A stretch of DNA of 64,000 bases from an uncultured Microbacterium sp. Its GTDB lineage: Bacteria; Actinomycetota; Actinomycetes; Actinomycetales; Microbacteriaceae. The notes below the pieces were generated by a model. That model searched no databases. It saw only the letters and a list, made by a program, of their open reading frames with translations, and was not told the DNA's origin. Position numbers and translations under genes: made by a program. Location: positions 43,569 through 107,568 of the forward strand of contig CAJYJO010000017.1 in the NCBI GenBank assembly GCA_913774845.1, in the 5' to 3' direction. Below are positions 2,072-28,689 of this stretch, one piece after another; position 1 is the stretch's first letter, and the number at the start of each line of letters is the position of its first letter.

Positions 2072-3397
2072 GTGCGTCTATCTGTAGTGGGGTGCGGCTA
2101 CCTGGGTGCCGTGCACGCCGCCGCCATGGCATCCATCGGCCACGACGTCGTCGGCATCGACGTCGACGAGCGCAAGGTCGCCGCCCTGTCGAAGGGCGAG
2201 GCCCCCTTCTTCGAACCCGGCCTGCAGGAGATCCTCACCGAGGGCATCGCGTCGGGGCGCCTGTCGTTCACCACCGACATGTCGGCCGCTCAGGGGGCGA
2301 AGGTGCACTTCGTCGGCGTCGGTACGCCTCAGCAGGCCGGGGGGTACGCCGCCGACCTCACTTATGTCGACGCCGCCATCGACGGCCTCCTGCCGTACCT
2401 GGCCGAGGGCGACATCGTCGCGGGCAAGTCCACGGTCCCCGTCGGCACCGCCGCGCGATTGGCTCCGCGCGTCACGGCGACCGGGGCGACGCTGGTGTGG
2501 AACCCCGAGTTCCTCCGCGAGGGCTGGGCCGTGCAGGACACCGTCGACCCCGATCGCCTGGTCGCCGGCGTCCCCAGCGACGACGGGGCTCCCACCGCCG
2601 AGGGCGAGCGAGCCGCCGGCATCCTCCGCGAGATCTACCACCCCTCGGTCGGCAAGGGCACGCCCTTCATCGTCACCGACTACGCCACCGCCGAGCTGGT
2701 CAAGGTCGCGGCCAACGCCTTCCTGGCGACGAAGATCTCCTTCATCAACGCCATGGCCGAGATCGCCGAGGTCACCGGGGCCGACGTCACGACCATCGCC
2801 GACGCGATCGGACACGACGCCCGCATCGGCCGCCGTTTCCTCGGCGCCGGCATCGGCTTCGGCGGCGGCTGCCTGCCCAAGGACATCCGCGCGTTCTCGG
2901 CCCGTGCCGAGGAGCTCGGTCGCGGCGAGTCCGTCGCCTTCCTTCGCGAGATGGACGCGATCAACCTCCGCCGTCGCGACCGCGCCGTCGACCTCGCCGT
3001 CGAAGCCCTCGGCGGAACGGTGTTCAAGAAGAACGTCACCGTCCTCGGCGCCGCCTTCAAACCCCACAGCGACGACATCCGCGACTCCCCCGCCCTCGAC
3101 GTCGCCGTCCGCCTGCACGGCCTCGGCGCCTGGGTCACGATCACCGACCCCGCCGCGATCGAGAACGCCCGTCGCGTCCACCCGCAGCTGAACTACGTCG
3201 ACGACCGCGACGAGGCCCTGCGCGAAGCGGACGCGGTGATCGTCGTGACGGAGTGGGACGAGTATCGCCGCGAGCTCTCCCCCGAGCACGCCGCGACCCT
3301 CGCTCGCGGGCGCATCGTGATCGACGGCCGCAACTGCCTCGACGCCGCTTCCTGGCGCGCCGCCGGCTGGACCTACCACGGCATGGGGCGCCCCTGA
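2072..3397 (+). CDS. ugd: UDP-glucose 6-dehydrogenase
   Basis: The enzyme oxidises UDP-glucose to UDP-glucuronate with two NAD+, supplying uronic acid for surface polysaccharides. The 441-residue length is normal. The N-terminal Rossmann motif VVGCGYLGAVHA binds NAD, the middle has GKSTVPVGT and NPEFLREG, and the catalytic cysteine is Cys267 in GFGGGCLPKD. The C-terminal UDP-binding domain has LGAAFKPHSDDIRDSPA. The start is a GTG at 2072 with a weak AAAGG upstream, 77 bases after the sugar transferase stop, so co-transcription with that gene is likely. A strong hairpin follows the stop codon. Confidence 0.95.
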   Translation: MRLSVVGCGYLGAVHAAAMASIGHDVVGIDVDERKVAALSKGEAPFFEPGLQEILTEGIASGRLSFTTDMSAAQGAKVHFVGVGTPQQAGGYAADLTYVDAAIDGLLPYLAEGDIVAGKSTVPVGTAARLAPRVTATGATLVWNPEFLREGWAVQDTVDPDRLVAGVPSDDGAPTAEGERAAGILREIYHPSVGKGTPFIVTDYATAELVKVAANAFLATKISFINAMAEIAEVTGADVTTIADAIGHDARIGRRFLGAGIGFGGGCLPKDIRAFSARAEELGRGESVAFLREMDAINLRRRDRAVDLAVEALGGTVFKKNVTVLGAAFKPHSDDIRDSPALDVAVRLHGLGAWVTITDPAAIENARRVHPQLNYVDDRDEALREADAVIVVTEWDEYRRELSPEHAATLARGRIVIDGRNCLDAASWRAAGWTYHGMGRP

Positions 3398-23367: not shown

Positions 23368-24264
23368 TCACCGTCCGATGTACCCCGCCTCGGTGACCCA
23401 CTGCTCCAGCCGCCATACGGGCACACGGAACACCCGTGCGACCGCGGTGATCGAGTGCTCGCCCTCGACGACGGAGGCGACGGCGAACTCCCGCAGGGAG
23501 CGGAACGCGCGACCCGCGAGCGGTCCCTCCCGCAGGTCGGAGAACGTGCGCGGTTCCTTGGGCCCCGTCGTCCCCGGCGCGACGAAGACGTATCTCGAGG
23601 CCCCCTGCATCCCCTGTTCCGCCGCGCGCCGGTGCACCTGCGTCGCGGCGGACTCGTGGATCGTCCCCGACACGGGAGGGCGGGATGCCGCGGGCGCGGC
23701 GTCCGGCGGCCGGAGAGCGGCCGCCTCGGGCCCGGACACCGGGGGAACCGACGCGCTCCACGTGTGCTCGGTGCGCGGGAAGGACGCGTCCGCCGGTGCG
23801 GACACCGGGTCGAACGCCGGCATCTCCGCGGCGGCGACCGCGCTCGTCCAAGGCGCGGCCGGGAGCTCACCGCCCCACACGACGTCGCTCGCGACGACGT
23901 ACGGGCTGGCCGCGGGAGCTGCCGGCGTCGTCGTCAGCCACGGCGCGGGCGGCAGTTCTCCGCCCCAGACGACCTCGCTGGGCACCACGTAAGGACTGTC
24001 GAACCCGCTCTGCGCCGGGGACGCTTCGGTGTCGCCGAAGAGCGCCGACACCTCGATCTCGAACGTCTCGGCGAGCGCCACCAGCGTCGCGAGGGATGCC
24101 GTCGTGCGGCCGCTCTCGATGGCTCGGACGCGTGACTCGGACAGCCCGGCCTCGAAGGCGAGCGCGGGAACGGTGAGGCCGCGTTCCTCGCGAAGTCGAC
24201 GGATCCGCGCGGAGAGGGCACGCAGCACCTCGTCGAGTCGCCCGTCGATCGGAGCTTCGCTCAC
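23368..24264 (-). CDS. XRE-family regulator with repeats and a shared C-terminal module
   Basis: This 298-residue protein starts with an XRE helix-turn-helix (about residues 12-72: LSARIRRLREERGLTVPALAFEAGLSESRVRAIESG). Next comes a Pro/Ala-rich linker with two tandem copies of a segment containing PYVV-x-S-x-VVWGGEL-P-APW, then a C-terminal module at residues 240-294. That module is about 64 percent identical (35 of 55 positions) to the cytoplasmic tail of the beta-helix membrane protein encoded just upstream, and looks like a second HTH (AVARVFRVPVWRLEQWV). The GTG start overlaps the upstream stop as GTGA. It is the last gene of the glycosyltransferase operon and probably controls it or partners the membrane protein. 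Confidence 0.8.
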   Translation of the reverse strand: MSEAPIDGRLDEVLRALSARIRRLREERGLTVPALAFEAGLSESRVRAIESGRTTASLATLVALAETFEIEVSALFGDTEASPAQSGFDSPYVVPSEVVWGGELPPAPWLTTTPAAPAASPYVVASDVVWGGELPAAPWTSAVAAAEMPAFDPVSAPADASFPRTEHTWSASVPPVSGPEAAALRPPDAAPAASRPPVSGTIHESAATQVHRRAAEQGMQGASRYVFVAPGTTGPKEPRTFSDLREGPLAGRAFRSLREFAVASVVEGEHSITAVARVFRVPVWRLEQWVTEAGYIGR

Positions 24265-26345
24265 GTGAACGTCCTCCCGGATCCGGCGGGCGCGGAAGCG
24301 GCCTCGTCCACCCACTTTTGCAGACGCCACTGCGGAATGCGGAACAGACGCGCGATCGAACCGACGGAGAAGCCTCCCTCCACGACCGCGGCGACGGCGA
24401 ACTCCCGCAGGGAGGCGAACGTGCGTCCTTCCAGCGGGCCGGTGCGCAGATCGGCGAAGGAGCGGGGCCGATCCGCACGGGCGTCTCGTGCGAGCCGAGC
24501 GGGCTCCCCGGCGAACAGCGGCGGCGCGGACGCGGGGGGCGGCACCGGTGTCGGCACCGGTGTCGGCACCGGCGTGGCCGGGTCCTCCGCGGCGGATCCG
24601 CCGTACGCCGCCACGCGTTCCTGCCCATCGCGCAGCAGAGCGTCGCGCAGCAGCCGACGCAAGCGACGGTGCTCCCGGGCCCGGCGCCACAGCAGGGGGA
24701 CGCCGATCGCGGGGATGAGGAGCACGAGCGCCCACATCCACATCATGGGATGTTCGTTCATCCACCCCACCCACGCCCATTGGAAGCTCCAGTGGGAGTC
24801 ATCGTTGTCGGCCTGCATCGTGCGCGCCCCCGACCACATCGCCACGGCGTCCTGCCCGATCCCGCGGAAGACGTTGCCCGTGAGGTCGGCACGAGCCTCG
24901 TCGGCGAGCTCCACGGCGTAGCCCGACGACACCGTCAGGTCGTTGTCCTTCACGATGACGGCGGCGCCCGCGAGCGCGAGCGCGATGCGGCGCCCCACGA
25001 GGCGGGAGCCCGAGACCGTGGCATCCGTGATGCGACCCGTGATGTCCAGGGCCCGCAGCTCGCTCGACGACAGGTCGGCGTTCGCGACCGTCAGTCCCTT
25101 CGACGGCCCCTCGACGAGCACGGCGGTGCGGACCTCGTCGATCGTGGTGCGCGTGATCTCGGTCGTGTCGTTCGAGATGACGCGGACGCCGCCGTCGCGG
25201 TTGTCCTGCACCCGGGATTCGGTCAGGGTGAAGCCGCTCGCCGGGTCCAGGCCGTAGCCGCCGCTGGTGGGACCGGCGGCGAGCGCGGACCCGTCGACAC
25301 GGATCCCCCAGCCGGCGGAGCCCTCCACCGTCGTCTCGGTGAGCGAGAGATCCTTCGACTGCCGCGACAGGGAGATGCCGTCTCCGCCGGAGTCGCGCAC
25401 GATCGCGCGCTGCAGCACGAAGTCGTGTCCGCCGTTGGTCAGCTCGACACCGGTGAGGGTCGAACCCGTGATGGTGGTGTCGAAGACGCCCACGCCGGTG
25501 CTCTCCGAGGCGAACAGGCCGTAGTGCAAACCGGTGATCGTGGTGTTCTGCAGCCGAACGCCGGCATCGACCGTCCCGCTCCCGGTGACCGCGAGACCGC
25601 CCGTCCGACCGCTCCAATAACCGAGCGAGGCGAAGTCGGCGAAGAAGGTCAACATGATCCCGTCGCGCACGCGGATGTAGGCGCGCCCGTCGGACTCGTC
25701 GACATCGGGACCTCCACGATCGTCGTCCCACGACGTGATCGTCATGCGCTCGCCCTCCGTGCCGGCGAACTGCAGGTGCCCGCCCCACCCGACGATGCTG
25801 GTGGTGCCTGCGGGCGAGCTGGCCATCCGCAGCGTCACCCCGGGAACGATGAGGTCCAGCTCCACGCCGGCGCGCACCACGACGTTGCGTACGAGGGTGA
25901 AGGTCTTGTCGTCGTCCCGCCGAACAGCTCCGAGAGCCACGAGGTCGTCGAGGACGTAGATCGTCGCCTGGCCGCCCTTCGCCCCGAGGACGACCGTGTT
26001 CCACTTCTCGATCAGCGCCGGGTCGGTGCTGCCGAGCGCCGCGACCGCGGACAGCCGCTCGTCCTCCGACGCCACGCGCTCAGCGGGCGTCTGGGGCGTG
26101 GTGCCGTCGTCCTCCGCCGATGCGGAGGGGGTCGGAGCCTCGCCCACCACCGCGGTCGTCGAGGCGGTGGCGGTGCGCAGCCACGGGAAGAAGGTGCCCG
26201 TGTGCACGAAGTTGCCGGTCAGGACGACACCCGCGACGAGCACGACGACGGCGACCAGCATGACGATCCGCCCGATGCCGCGCAGCGCGACGTGGGTGTC
26301 GCCTCGCTCGCGGGCGGTGAGGGCGGCGGCGTCGTCACCCGACAC
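24261..26345 (-). CDS. Membrane-anchored right-handed beta-helix protein, epimerase/lyase-like
   Basis: This 694-residue protein has an N-terminal membrane helix (residues about 25-46) and a long extracytoplasmic region of parallel beta-helix repeats (TTITGLHYGLF, GVELTNGGHDFVLQRAIVRDSGGDGISL and similar) like mannuronan C5-epimerases and pectate lyases. A second helix follows near residue 533 (MMWMWALVLLIPAIGVPLLW). The cytoplasmic tail has a PTPVPTPVPTPVPPP linker and, at residues 629-683, the HTH-like module shared with the adjacent XRE protein. The GTG at 26345 is chosen because CCGGAGG stands six bases upstream; it overlaps the glycosyltransferase stop by 11 bases. Enzyme activity is inferred from fold only; no catalytic residue is assigned. 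Confidence 0.78.
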   Translation of the reverse strand: MSGDDAAALTARERGDTHVALRGIGRIVMLVAVVVLVAGVVLTGNFVHTGTFFPWLRTATASTTAVVGEAPTPSASAEDDGTTPQTPAERVASEDERLSAVAALGSTDPALIEKWNTVVLGAKGGQATIYVLDDLVALGAVRRDDDKTFTLVRNVVVRAGVELDLIVPGVTLRMASSPAGTTSIVGWGGHLQFAGTEGERMTITSWDDDRGGPDVDESDGRAYIRVRDGIMLTFFADFASLGYWSGRTGGLAVTGSGTVDAGVRLQNTTITGLHYGLFASESTGVGVFDTTITGSTLTGVELTNGGHDFVLQRAIVRDSGGDGISLSRQSKDLSLTETTVEGSAGWGIRVDGSALAAGPTSGGYGLDPASGFTLTESRVQDNRDGGVRVISNDTTEITRTTIDEVRTAVLVEGPSKGLTVANADLSSSELRALDITGRITDATVSGSRLVGRRIALALAGAAVIVKDNDLTVSSGYAVELADEARADLTGNVFRGIGQDAVAMWSGARTMQADNDDSHWSFQWAWVGWMNEHPMMWMWALVLLIPAIGVPLLWRRAREHRRLRRLLRDALLRDGQERVAAYGGSAAEDPATPVPTPVPTPVPPPASAPPLFAGEPARLARDARADRPRSFADLRTGPLEGRTFASLREFAVAAVVEGGFSVGSIARLFRIPQWRLQKWVDEAASAPAGSGRTFT
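24541..24576. repeat. 12-bp tandem repeat, three copies
   Basis: The unit GGCACCGGTGTC is present twice and is followed by GGCACCGGCGTG. It encodes the PTPVPTPVPTPV linker between the second membrane helix and the C-terminal module of the beta-helix protein. Copy number may vary between strains, which would change linker length. Confidence 0.85.
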
Positions 26346-27603
26346 GCGGTGCCTCCGGCTCCGGCGTCGGGGGCGCGGCATCCGTCGGGTCGAGCAGGCT
26401 CGCCTCGGTCTGCCCCTCTCCCCCCTGCGTATCGGCCGAACGCGTGAGCCATCCCTGCTTGTTCATCGTGAACAGCGCGTACAGCTTGATCGGCAGCGAG
26501 ACGAAGATGATGACGACCGTCACCAGGGGCAGGAGCACGATGTCCTCGGGACGGCGCCACAGGTGGGACATGCCCCGGATGCCGCGACCGACGAACATCC
26601 ACACCACCGCGAGCACCATGGCGAGCACCGGATGCTCGGCGCGCACCGCCAGCACGATGTAGGCGAGGGCGACGAACATCGTGAAGGGGGTGAGCAGGAT
26701 CTGCATCATCGTGATCTGCGAGATCAGCGGCACCTTGAACACCCAGCCGTGCCGGATCGCGGTGAGATAGCACCGGTACGAGTTGCGGCTCCACCGCACC
26801 CGCTGCTTCACGAACGCGCGGAAGGTCCCGGGGAACATCGACAGCGCGCGGGCGCTGTCCTGGTGGGCCACCCGGAACCCCTGGGACAGCACGAGCCAGG
26901 TCATGCGCCCGTCGTCGCCCGCCACGCACTGCCGACCGAAGAACGTCTCGTTCTCGAGCTCTTCGACGCGCGGCACGATCGCCGACGTACGGTAGGCCGC
27001 CGTCCGCCCGGACGCGCAGATGACGCCGCCGAACCGCCCCATGGCCGGGGCGTAGTCGGTGCAGCGCAGGTCGATGATCCAGTCGGCCACGCGTCGCCAC
27101 ACGCTCGACTTCGGGAGGTAGACGTTCTGCCGGGTGCTGACCGCCCCCACCGCGGGGTCGATGAAAGGCATCTGCACCGCCGCGAGCATCCCGTCCTCCC
27201 ACGCCGTGTCGGAGTCGACGAACACGATGAGCTCGGTGTCGACCATGCGCATACCGACCCCCAGCGCCGACCGCTTGCCGCGGTGCTTGAACATCACCAC
27301 GTCGACGGTGGGGAGCTCCATCGCCTCGATGCGGCGCTGCGCCTCGGTGTCGGCCAGGTCGAGGACGATGATGACGCGCGAAGGCCCCTGTCGCACCCAC
27401 GTCTTCAGGCAGCGGATGAGGACGTCGGGGTCCTCGCGGAACGAGGGCACCACGACCGTCGTCGTCGTGCGGAAGTCGTTGCGCACCGGGCGGGCGGTCG
27501 CAGCCAGGATCTTGCGGACGATCCAGAACCCCCAGGACACCATCCCGAGGTACCCGAAGGGCAGAACCCACATCAGCTGGTCGCTGAACGACGCGTCGCC
27601 CAC
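26335..27603 (-). CDS. Processive GT2 glycosyltransferase, hyaluronan/mannuronan synthase-like
   Basis: This 422-residue membrane protein has an N-terminal helix, a GT2 GT-A domain and four or five C-terminal helices. Catalytic blocks are VVPSFREDPDVL, the metal-binding VDSDTAWEDG, CVAGDDGRMTW (TED-like position) and the processivity motif QRVRW. The order of motifs and the length resemble hyaluronan synthase or Alg8-type polymerases, which polymerise and export the chain. The GTG at 27603 follows GGGAAGGAG. It is the first gene of an operon with a beta-helix protein and an XRE regulator. The polymer is unknown; a uronic-acid polymer is an inference from the neighbour fold. Confidence 0.85.
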   Translation of the reverse strand: MGDASFSDQLMWVLPFGYLGMVSWGFWIVRKILAATARPVRNDFRTTTTVVVPSFREDPDVLIRCLKTWVRQGPSRVIIVLDLADTEAQRRIEAMELPTVDVVMFKHRGKRSALGVGMRMVDTELIVFVDSDTAWEDGMLAAVQMPFIDPAVGAVSTRQNVYLPKSSVWRRVADWIIDLRCTDYAPAMGRFGGVICASGRTAAYRTSAIVPRVEELENETFFGRQCVAGDDGRMTWLVLSQGFRVAHQDSARALSMFPGTFRAFVKQRVRWSRNSYRCYLTAIRHGWVFKVPLISQITMMQILLTPFTMFVALAYIVLAVRAEHPVLAMVLAVVWMFVGRGIRGMSHLWRRPEDIVLLPLVTVVIIFVSLPIKLYALFTMNKQGWLTRSADTQGGEGQTEASLLDPTDAAPPTPEPEAPRVG

Positions 27604-27684
27604 CGTGCTCCTTCCCGACGTGCAGTCGTAGACCGTGCCGGGGGAGACACTGAACGATAGCGCGTTCGCGCCGCCGGTGTCGTC

Positions 27685-28689
27685 TCAGCAGCCGTCGACG
27701 CCGAGGGCCGTCCCCTCGGCCACGGTGTTGTCGCACGCGACGAGGTTGTCCGCGGACGCCGCAGCGCCGACGAGGTGCACACCGCGCCCGCCCGTCGCCG
27801 CGCGCAGGACCGATCCGGAGACGGTGTTGCCCGAGCCCCACGGGGCGAGGATGACGTGGATCGACACCGCCTCGGCGGGGCCCGTCACCGTGCTGGACTC
27901 GACCCGCCAGCCGCTGCCCTTGAGATCGATCGCGCTGTCGACGACGGCATCCGGGGCGATCGACAGGGTCGACGAACGGATCACTCCGTCGCTCGTCCCC
28001 TCCTTGACGTCGACGGCCTCGGCACGGGTGTCGGCGACCGACAGCGACTCGAAGACGTTGCGATCGCTGCGATCGGGCCCGCAGGCGGTGTACCGGCACC
28101 AGTTGGACTCGGCGGAGCCGATGTACACGCCCTCGCCGAATTCGGGGTCGCTCAGCCCCGTGCGCGACACCGACACCGCGCGGACGAGGTTGTCGGAGCT
28201 GCCGCTGCGCAGGTGCAGTCCCTCCTGCCCCACGTCGGCGATGCGCACGCCCGACAGCGTCGCGCCGGACACGGCATCCAGGACGACGCCCTTCTGTCCC
28301 CCGCGCACGGTGAGATCGCGGACGACCCAGTGCGAGGCGCCGTCGAGGTGGAGCGTGTAGCCGGAGCCGAGGTCGCCCCCGTCGAGCACGCTCCCCTCGA
28401 CACCGCAGAGCACGACGGGGGCGTCGTCGGTCCCGGGGACCTGGGCGTGGAAACGGCCCGAGTAGACCACCGGCGACAGCTGCAGCACCGCACCGGGACG
28501 GGCGGTGTCGAGCGCGCGCTGCAGATCATCGGCGTCGGGACCGACCTCCACCGCACCCGGCGCGCACGGCACCGCGGTCGTGGTGGCGACGGCCGGCGCG
28601 CCCACGACCGAGTCGTTCGAGGGAGCGCACCCCGCCAGCAGCACCGCGGCAAGCGCCATCGGCACCACGAGACGCACGAAAGAGGACAT
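27685..28689 (-). CDS. Right-handed beta-helix lipoprotein
   Basis: This 334-residue protein has a lipoprotein signal peptide with lipobox LLAGC (lipidated Cys21) and a parallel beta-helix domain: YTLHLDGASHWVVRDLTVRG, GVVLDAVSGATLSGVRI, GLHLRSGSSDNLVRAV. Three late cysteines (WCRYTACG, LVACDNTV) may form disulfides. The fold is that of polysaccharide lyases and epimerases. It lies 81 bases upstream of the GT2 operon on the same strand, so it could modify, trim or bind the polymer outside the membrane. GATACT seven bases before the ATG is a possible leaderless -10 box. No catalytic residues can be assigned. Confidence 0.82.
   Translation of the reverse strand: MSSFVRLVVPMALAAVLLAGCAPSNDSVVGAPAVATTTAVPCAPGAVEVGPDADDLQRALDTARPGAVLQLSPVVYSGRFHAQVPGTDDAPVVLCGVEGSVLDGGDLGSGYTLHLDGASHWVVRDLTVRGGQKGVVLDAVSGATLSGVRIADVGQEGLHLRSGSSDNLVRAVSVSRTGLSDPEFGEGVYIGSAESNWCRYTACGPDRSDRNVFESLSVADTRAEAVDVKEGTSDGVIRSSTLSIAPDAVVDSAIDLKGSGWRVESSTVTGPAEAVSIHVILAPWGSGNTVSGSVLRAATGGRGVHLVGAAASADNLVACDNTVAEGTALGVDGC

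Follow-up and report, generated by a model that had tools for sequence, protein, structure and literature searches.

Two proteins encoded by overlapping genes in a 64,000-nucleotide window from an uncultured Microbacterium sp. were found to end in the same helix-turn-helix (HTH)-like piece, hereafter called the module. The two proteins are a beta-helix membrane protein (BHTM) and an XRE-family regulator (the XRE protein) of a polysaccharide-type polymer locus, whose genes lie on the minus strand; all coordinates are positions in this window. Comparison across genomes indicates that the module is an old conserved family and not a local duplication, and we consider this anatomy and family history, taken alone, to be very probably correct. 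We propose tentatively, at somewhat less than an even chance, that the module is an HTH-fold interaction domain through which BHTM captures the autorepressor of the operon. What was computed is the anatomy, the predicted fold and its conservation, the overlap of the genes in the operon, their co-occurrence, the conserved promoter-proximal element and the purifying selection.

The translations of positions 23383-23547 and 24297-24461 (minus strand) were identical at 35 of 55 residues, and positions 23476-23500 and 24390-24414 carried the same 25 bases, as claimed in the original prediction. The whole XRE protein aligned with the whole BHTM at 37/58 identical residues (BLASTP, E = 2e-22), which is far above chance, and the module measured about 60 residues in both proteins (23377-23556 and 24291-24470, respectively). 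A third copy in the same genome was found neither by a DNA search at E ≤ 0.001 nor by a protein search, in which the next match had an E value of 0.58. The 25-base run was the longest among 64 module pairs, and pairs from different genomes reached 23 bases. At shared residues, the mean third-position identity was 0.56 for the 8 pairs within genomes and 0.53 for the 56 pairs between genomes. Because silent-site identity is similar within and between genomes and cross-genome runs are nearly as long, the 25-base run is poor evidence of exchange; its best explanation is residue conservation combined with GC-rich codons, rather than a recent event. Local duplication and recent gene conversion were ruled out by the silent-site comparison together with the conservation of the module across genomes and genera.

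Structure prediction of the module alone, using an alignment of 30 sequences, gave a confident HTH (mean pLDDT 92, pTM 0.77; helices at residues 21-30, 36-43, and 47-56), the fold that had been proposed from the residue pattern. The model consists of a three-helix HTH core and an extra helix, and the block means for the module inside the BHTM model (residues 641-700) were 83-96. Thirteen of the 60 columns were invariant in the 30 sequences. No curated Pfam or NCBIfam family reached its cut-off. The sub-threshold Pfam matches were HTH_Tnp_1, HTH_Tnp_ISL3, HTH_23, HTH_28, Sigma70_r4_2, CENP-B_N, and IS630, together with the non-HTH DUF677 and a weak Rv3651-like_C match; the best scores were 21.4 bits against a cut-off of 24.1 for HTH_Tnp_1 (L055) and 19.8 against 24.6 for HTH_23 (L080), and HTH_28 scored 17.8 against 25 (L080). 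HTH_Tnp_1, HTH_23, and HTH_28 matched weakly over the core helices, and relative to these families the Microbacterium module has an extra N-terminal stretch, RxFxDLRxGxLxGRxF. One unnamed PHROGs family matched (E 0.0024), the module profile found nothing significant among PDB sequences (best E 1.1), and Foldseek returned no match at E ≤ 0.001. These results indicate that the module is an HTH-like domain uncatalogued in the libraries searched.

BHTM (706 amino acids, 24261-26381) follows a GT2 polysaccharide synthase of the hyaluronan-synthase/NodC-like type (26335-27603). It contains a first membrane helix (residues 30-60, 26202-26294, by structure prediction), an AlgG-like right-handed beta-helix (residues 128-533, 24783-26000), a second membrane helix (residues 545-566, 24684-24749, the membrane part read from sequence), and the module at the C terminus. 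The description of BHTM as a two-helix membrane protein with a polysaccharide-type domain was borne out by the model, in which the two helices lie around an enzyme-like beta-helix; the tail is expected to be cytoplasmic as claimed, the membrane side being judged from the sequence. The closest structure to BHTM was the alginate C5-epimerase AlgG (4nk8; E 6.5e-11, 11% identity, TM 0.59 by target length). In the model, a long helix (residues 545-593) is followed by a low-confidence linker and the HTH module (residues 642-696). Residues 567-593 (24603-24683) continue the helix beyond the second membrane helix and are similar across the HTH-tail clade; in the model this extension could be a signalling helix. 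In regards to the synthase, the best solved relatives were hyaluronan synthases (8smm, E 3.2e-20; 7sp7, E 7.1e-20), and models of NodC, MftF, and PgaC also matched, all below the cut-off.

The XRE protein (298 amino acids, 23368-24264) is composed of an N-terminal HTH_3 domain (PF01381, 42.7 bits against a cut-off of 23, residues 21-73), a Pro/Ala/Trp linker with two copies of WGGELPxAPW (23848-23997), and the module. Its start codon overlaps the BHTM stop codon (GTGA) at this locus, and a GTGA or ATGA overlap was present in all 13 XRE operons examined; a 14th was split across contigs.

We surveyed 119 Microbacterium genomes, later widened to 366, and 398 Microbacteriaceae genomes. Kinship among genomes was ignored in all counts and statistics, most neighbour genes were named by eye, and the synthase was sought genome-wide in a part of the 366 genomes, so that a tail-less BHTM could escape notice in the rest. 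A single-sequence search matched 22 of the 119 genomes and a profile search matched 58 of the 366. The architectures of the 58, sorted partly by eye, comprised 23 genomes with the operon and a BHTM tail, 32 with a second module protein only, and three with remnants only (G894, G991, and G1115). Three operon genomes (G053, G055, and G1015) were split over contigs, and the synthase and BHTM frames of G1061 were interrupted. A second module protein was present in 50/366 genomes; it accompanied the operon in 18/23 genomes (an XRE protein in 14, a protein with a membrane helix in 2, and a linker-only protein in 2) versus 32/343 of the others (Fisher 2.7e-13, uncorrected for kinship).

Among the 119 genomes, synthase orthologues with at least 75% identity occurred in ten, all of which had the BHTM tail (on a contig separate from the synthase in G053 and G055), and the locus of an eleventh synthase (57% identity) had no tail. 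Absence of the module from most homologous operons, which was to reduce the match to a local duplication, therefore does not apply inside the synthase clade. The interpretation given in the original prediction is supported in part: the fold, the membrane anatomy and the conservation agree with it, and the sensing pair or dimerisation tag that it suggested is a putative role. The family profile search matched 14/398 genomes in five genera including Microbacterium; each of the 11 matching genomes outside Microbacterium had a single match, located at the C terminus of a BHTM, where the HTH had diverged but could still be recognised. The fetched loci held 21 complete BHTM C-termini with the tail and 36 complete homologues without it (judged by eye and a rough pattern), and two further homologues were truncated where a contig or a fetched stretch ended. 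The synthase tree had 58 rows (one synthase entered twice), and the 19 tail-locus rows formed one side of one branch in it (support 100/99). Because the tail-locus synthases group in this way, the tail probably arose once, in one Microbacteriaceae synthase clade. No module tail was found at the homologous loci examined outside that clade; the exception to the pairing is G292, whose fetched stretches contain an HTH-tailed protein but no synthase from its clade. The module tree (60 columns) was compatible with either a single origin or two origins for the modules outside BHTM.

The wider operon family (L086-L100 and L104) consists of a synthase, a beta-helix membrane protein, a beta-helix lipoprotein, and often a UDP-glucose-dehydrogenase-like gene, and many of its members have a short tail motif such as HPYxxxxPLxxLxxGVV in place of the HTH. 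In family f16 (L109, L110, L115, and L118), the same membrane protein has a long, Pro-rich C-terminal tail that includes a motif such as EPPVAAEW/DW and closes with IDLAIAxxR.

The 50 second module proteins comprised 31 XRE-derived proteins (that of G007 without the XRE domain), 4 short XRE proteins, and 15 transmembrane (TM) or linker forms. WGGxLPxAPW was present in 29/29 full XRE linkers, the linker of G1015 being cut and G007 lacking that exact form, and LExPxxWEP was present in 15/15 TM/linker proteins. Trp motifs were present in 0/4 short XRE proteins and in 0/23 Microbacterium BHTM tails (one tail only partly visible). A Trp motif of some kind occurred in 6/11 BHTM linkers of other genera, and a search for a second user of the motif in the genome of the window gave no convincing copy (next match E 0.74). 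The string LEMPEVW is common to one other-genus BHTM linker and one Microbacterium linker protein; because 44/2000 shuffles of the Pro-rich linker shared at least 7 residues, we regard this string as a lead only. In L165 (7669-7830) and L178 (7056-7214), from the operon genomes G937 and G1051, the proteins are membrane-anchored, an N-terminal hydrophobic helix preceding a Trp-motif linker and the module. In L046 (9422-9960), the locus of G007, the module gene has a lipoprotein-like signal in place of the XRE domain; from its sequence, this form is probably a deletion fusion of the signal of the beta-helix lipoprotein (first gene) with the XRE linker (last gene).

The XRE genes of operon-less loci showed high synonymous change, with little change in the XRE domain and the module. 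The dN/dS values for the operon-less pair L036/L040 were 0.04/0.31 for the XRE domain and 0.08/0.80 for the module, and the module ratio was 0.06-0.33 in the 12 pairs computed. These results indicate that the XRE domain and the module stay under purifying selection after loss of the operon.

A conserved 36-bp element lies upstream of the synthase (27633-27668, minus strand) and overlaps a TANNNT -10-like box and probably the leader start. The element was found before the GT2 gene in 11/12 XRE operons in one scan (13/14 with two separate contigs added), in 0/9 operons without XRE, and before XRE in 10/16 operon-less XRE loci; the scan, which covered 984,701 bases of module loci, gave no further match. 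Among operon-less loci the pairwise identity of the element was 0.88, compared with 0.36 for the upstream flank and 0.56 for the downstream flank; the corresponding values were 0.77, 0.55, and 0.38 among operon loci, and 0.73, 0.32, and 0.35 when loci of the two groups were compared. Because a relic of the synthase start was read behind the element in several operon-less loci, these loci have probably lost the polymer genes and kept the promoter and the regulator. A 16-base palindrome, GAACG-N6-CGTTC, was considered as the XRE operator and dropped; since its symmetry is missing in several loci, we claim only a conserved element. A leader hairpin covering the ribosome site folded in 6/6 leaders tried (z -1.1 to -3.9). 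This hairpin pairs TCTCCCC with a GGGGAGA-like ribosome site before the synthase start (27604-27660; also L037, L038, L042, L044, and L041), and the pairing is still possible in one operon-less locus. Because the leader can fold over the ribosome site, though with unclear covariation support (2/11 pairs changed on both sides in the leader alignment, with an unfavourable covariation term of +1.22), the element may be an operator, a leader structure, or both.

In the mechanism that we favour, the original home of the module would be the cytoplasmic tail of the AlgG-like membrane-anchored beta-helix protein located after the hyaluronan-synthase-like GT2. In Microbacterium, this tail would have been copied onto second proteins, mostly the XRE regulator as the overlapping last gene of the operon. 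The XRE domain would repress the operon by binding the promoter element in front of the synthase, the shared module would let the regulator self-associate, and the BHTM tail would pair with the module of the regulator. In this way, the amount of regulator remaining on DNA would depend on the polymer machine, either on its presence or on its state. Repression, module-module pairing, sequestration, and any sensing are the steps that we infer. A homotypic module would explain its retention in the regulator after the loss of BHTM (self-association), the BHTM tails without a regulator, and the frequent presence of both. In favour of this mechanism are the presence of one module on both proteins, the overlap of their genes, the canonical HTH_3 domain of the regulator, the distribution of the element, the purifying selection, and the co-occurrence of operon and second protein. 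The recognition-helix face of the Microbacterium module, which is not basic and has an invariant Trp48, also favours it. Position 55 was Asp or Glu in all 10 BHTM modules compared (excluding two rows whose length differed) and, among 15 XRE modules, Arg in 6 and Ala in 5; this difference would suit pairing between unlike modules. The narrower proposal, that this system is a membrane-tethered partner switch in which the HTH-fold tail of an AlgG-like two-helix protein titrates a promoter-binding autorepressor with the same tail and so reports the state of the extracellular polymer machine straight to its own operon without a kinase, second messenger, or proteolysis, is possible but doubtful.

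Several results weigh against capture of the autorepressor by BHTM. The partners are not obligate, since 5/23 operon genomes have the tail only and 32 genomes have the second protein only; the single matches in the other genera point the same way. Because TM and linker-only proteins without an XRE domain exist, regulation cannot be the sole job of the module. The XRE operon of G1085 and 6/16 operon-less XRE loci lacked the element at the search setting, although a diverged element was seen by eye in two of the six. The element may be a promoter plus a leader hairpin rather than an operator. Furthermore, because the 16-base core had 17 matches with at most 2 mismatches in the genome of the window (one exact, two with a single mismatch) versus 8 for a reversed control, further XRE sites may exist there.

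The serious rival is that the module itself binds DNA, in which case BHTM would be a membrane-bound one-component regulator with ToxR/CadC-like logic and the XRE protein would carry two DNA-binding domains; we consider this unlikely on balance, and pairing between proteins is modestly favoured over it. The module does have an HTH fold, most of its sub-threshold Pfam matches and most of the best 50 Foldseek rows are DNA-binding HTH families or domains, and the last helix of the tail is basic in other genera (mean +2.4, 8 rows), which fits DNA binding better than pairing. However, Microbacterium modules lack a basic recognition helix (group means -0.3 to -0.8), although net charge is no discriminator because the DNA-binding domain of the XRE protein also scores 0. 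An invariant Trp48 lies on the recognition-helix face of the Microbacterium modules, at what we take to be a DNA-facing position of standard HTHs; several other genera have Gly or Ala at these positions. The absence of a Foldseek match at E 0.001 and of a curated family above its cut-off also argues against DNA binding, as do the C-terminal placement and the HTH type, which are unlike those of ToxR-like proteins. ToxR-family proteins have an N-terminal winged HTH and one membrane helix, whereas BHTM has a C-terminal HTH without wing strands in the model, two membrane helices, and a beta-helix. Both share an extracytoplasmic domain, a membrane helix, and a cytoplasmic HTH, and CadC, whose HTH sits on a disordered linker, is reported to bind DNA while integrated in the membrane (PMC5936718).

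A further reading, in which the module serves as a docking or scaffold domain of the biosynthetic machinery (for the synthase, UDP-sugar enzymes, or a membrane partner), is also rather improbable. The variable N-termini (XRE, membrane helix, or none) would then direct the module to DNA, the membrane, or the cytosol, and the linker Trp motifs would act as ligands. The TM and linker-only proteins would suit this role, as would their neighbours: in G111, G056, and G015 the linker-only protein is flanked by glmS and ugd, and in G035 the TM protein adjoins galU, all of these neighbours being identified by eye. The strict retention of the Trp motifs in full XRE linkers and TM/linker proteins, and their absence from Microbacterium BHTM tails, also fit docking. 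In contrast, the XRE form is strongly linked to its operon and element, no partner for docking was identified, and the four short XRE proteins lack the Trp motif. That the tail is a duplicate kept by chance, with no function of its own, is largely refuted and very improbable, since module dN/dS is low in 12/12 pairs and the invariant columns and the conservation in other genera oppose it, although tail-only remnants adjoin XRE genes in G092 and G1067 and three genomes have remnants only.

The first gene of the polymer operon encodes a lipoprotein-like beta-helix protein (27685-28689, minus strand). The sequence TGnGATACTCGA lies about 10 bases before its start codon, just upstream of 28689, and was present in 5/5 operons inspected (this one, L037, L038, L042, and L044); it resembles an extended -10 that would yield a transcript with little or no leader. 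In many homologous synthase loci of other genera, the next gene was judged by eye to encode a UDP-glucose dehydrogenase; such a gene was also read in G111 and G467. The genome of the window has two NDP-sugar dehydrogenases by family search, one of them (UDP-glucose type) at 2075-3334 on the plus strand. Judging from these genes, this dehydrogenase likely supplies UDP-glucuronate, and the polymer likely contains glucuronate.

The nearest working analogue, by logic and not by descent, would be the SinR/SinI pair, in which SinI is soluble. As reported for B. subtilis (PMC3163267), SinR represses biofilm genes, binds DNA through its N-terminal part and has a C-terminal association domain, the association surface is conserved in SinI, and SinR/SinI pairing abolishes DNA binding. 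The XRE protein resembles SinR, as described there, in having an XRE HTH and a C-terminal domain common to a second protein, association through the module being our proposal. Unlike the module, which is an HTH with an extra helix, the shared Sin part in that account is a helix pair that hooks into a four-helix bundle, and unlike SinI, a small separate protein, BHTM sits in the membrane and belongs to the polymer machine itself. The locus resembles the alginate system in combining a GT2 synthase with an AlgG-like beta-helix. However, the AlgG likeness is at the level of fold, and the solved structure nearest to the synthase is that of hyaluronan synthase. Alg44 is a membrane protein of the alginate machine with a cytoplasmic regulatory domain (PilZ), whereas the cytoplasmic domain of BHTM is HTH-like. 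The open-access literature searched contained no recognised description of a system of this form.

To our knowledge, how Gram-positive bacteria tie transcription of synthase-dependent polysaccharides to the state of the membrane machine is largely open. The present analysis adds an HTH-like domain, uncatalogued in the libraries searched, with several fusion partners. Because the domain is defined, the promoter element is named, and natural genomes exist that have only the tail, only the second protein, or the two together, partner switching can be tested directly in a genus from the environment.

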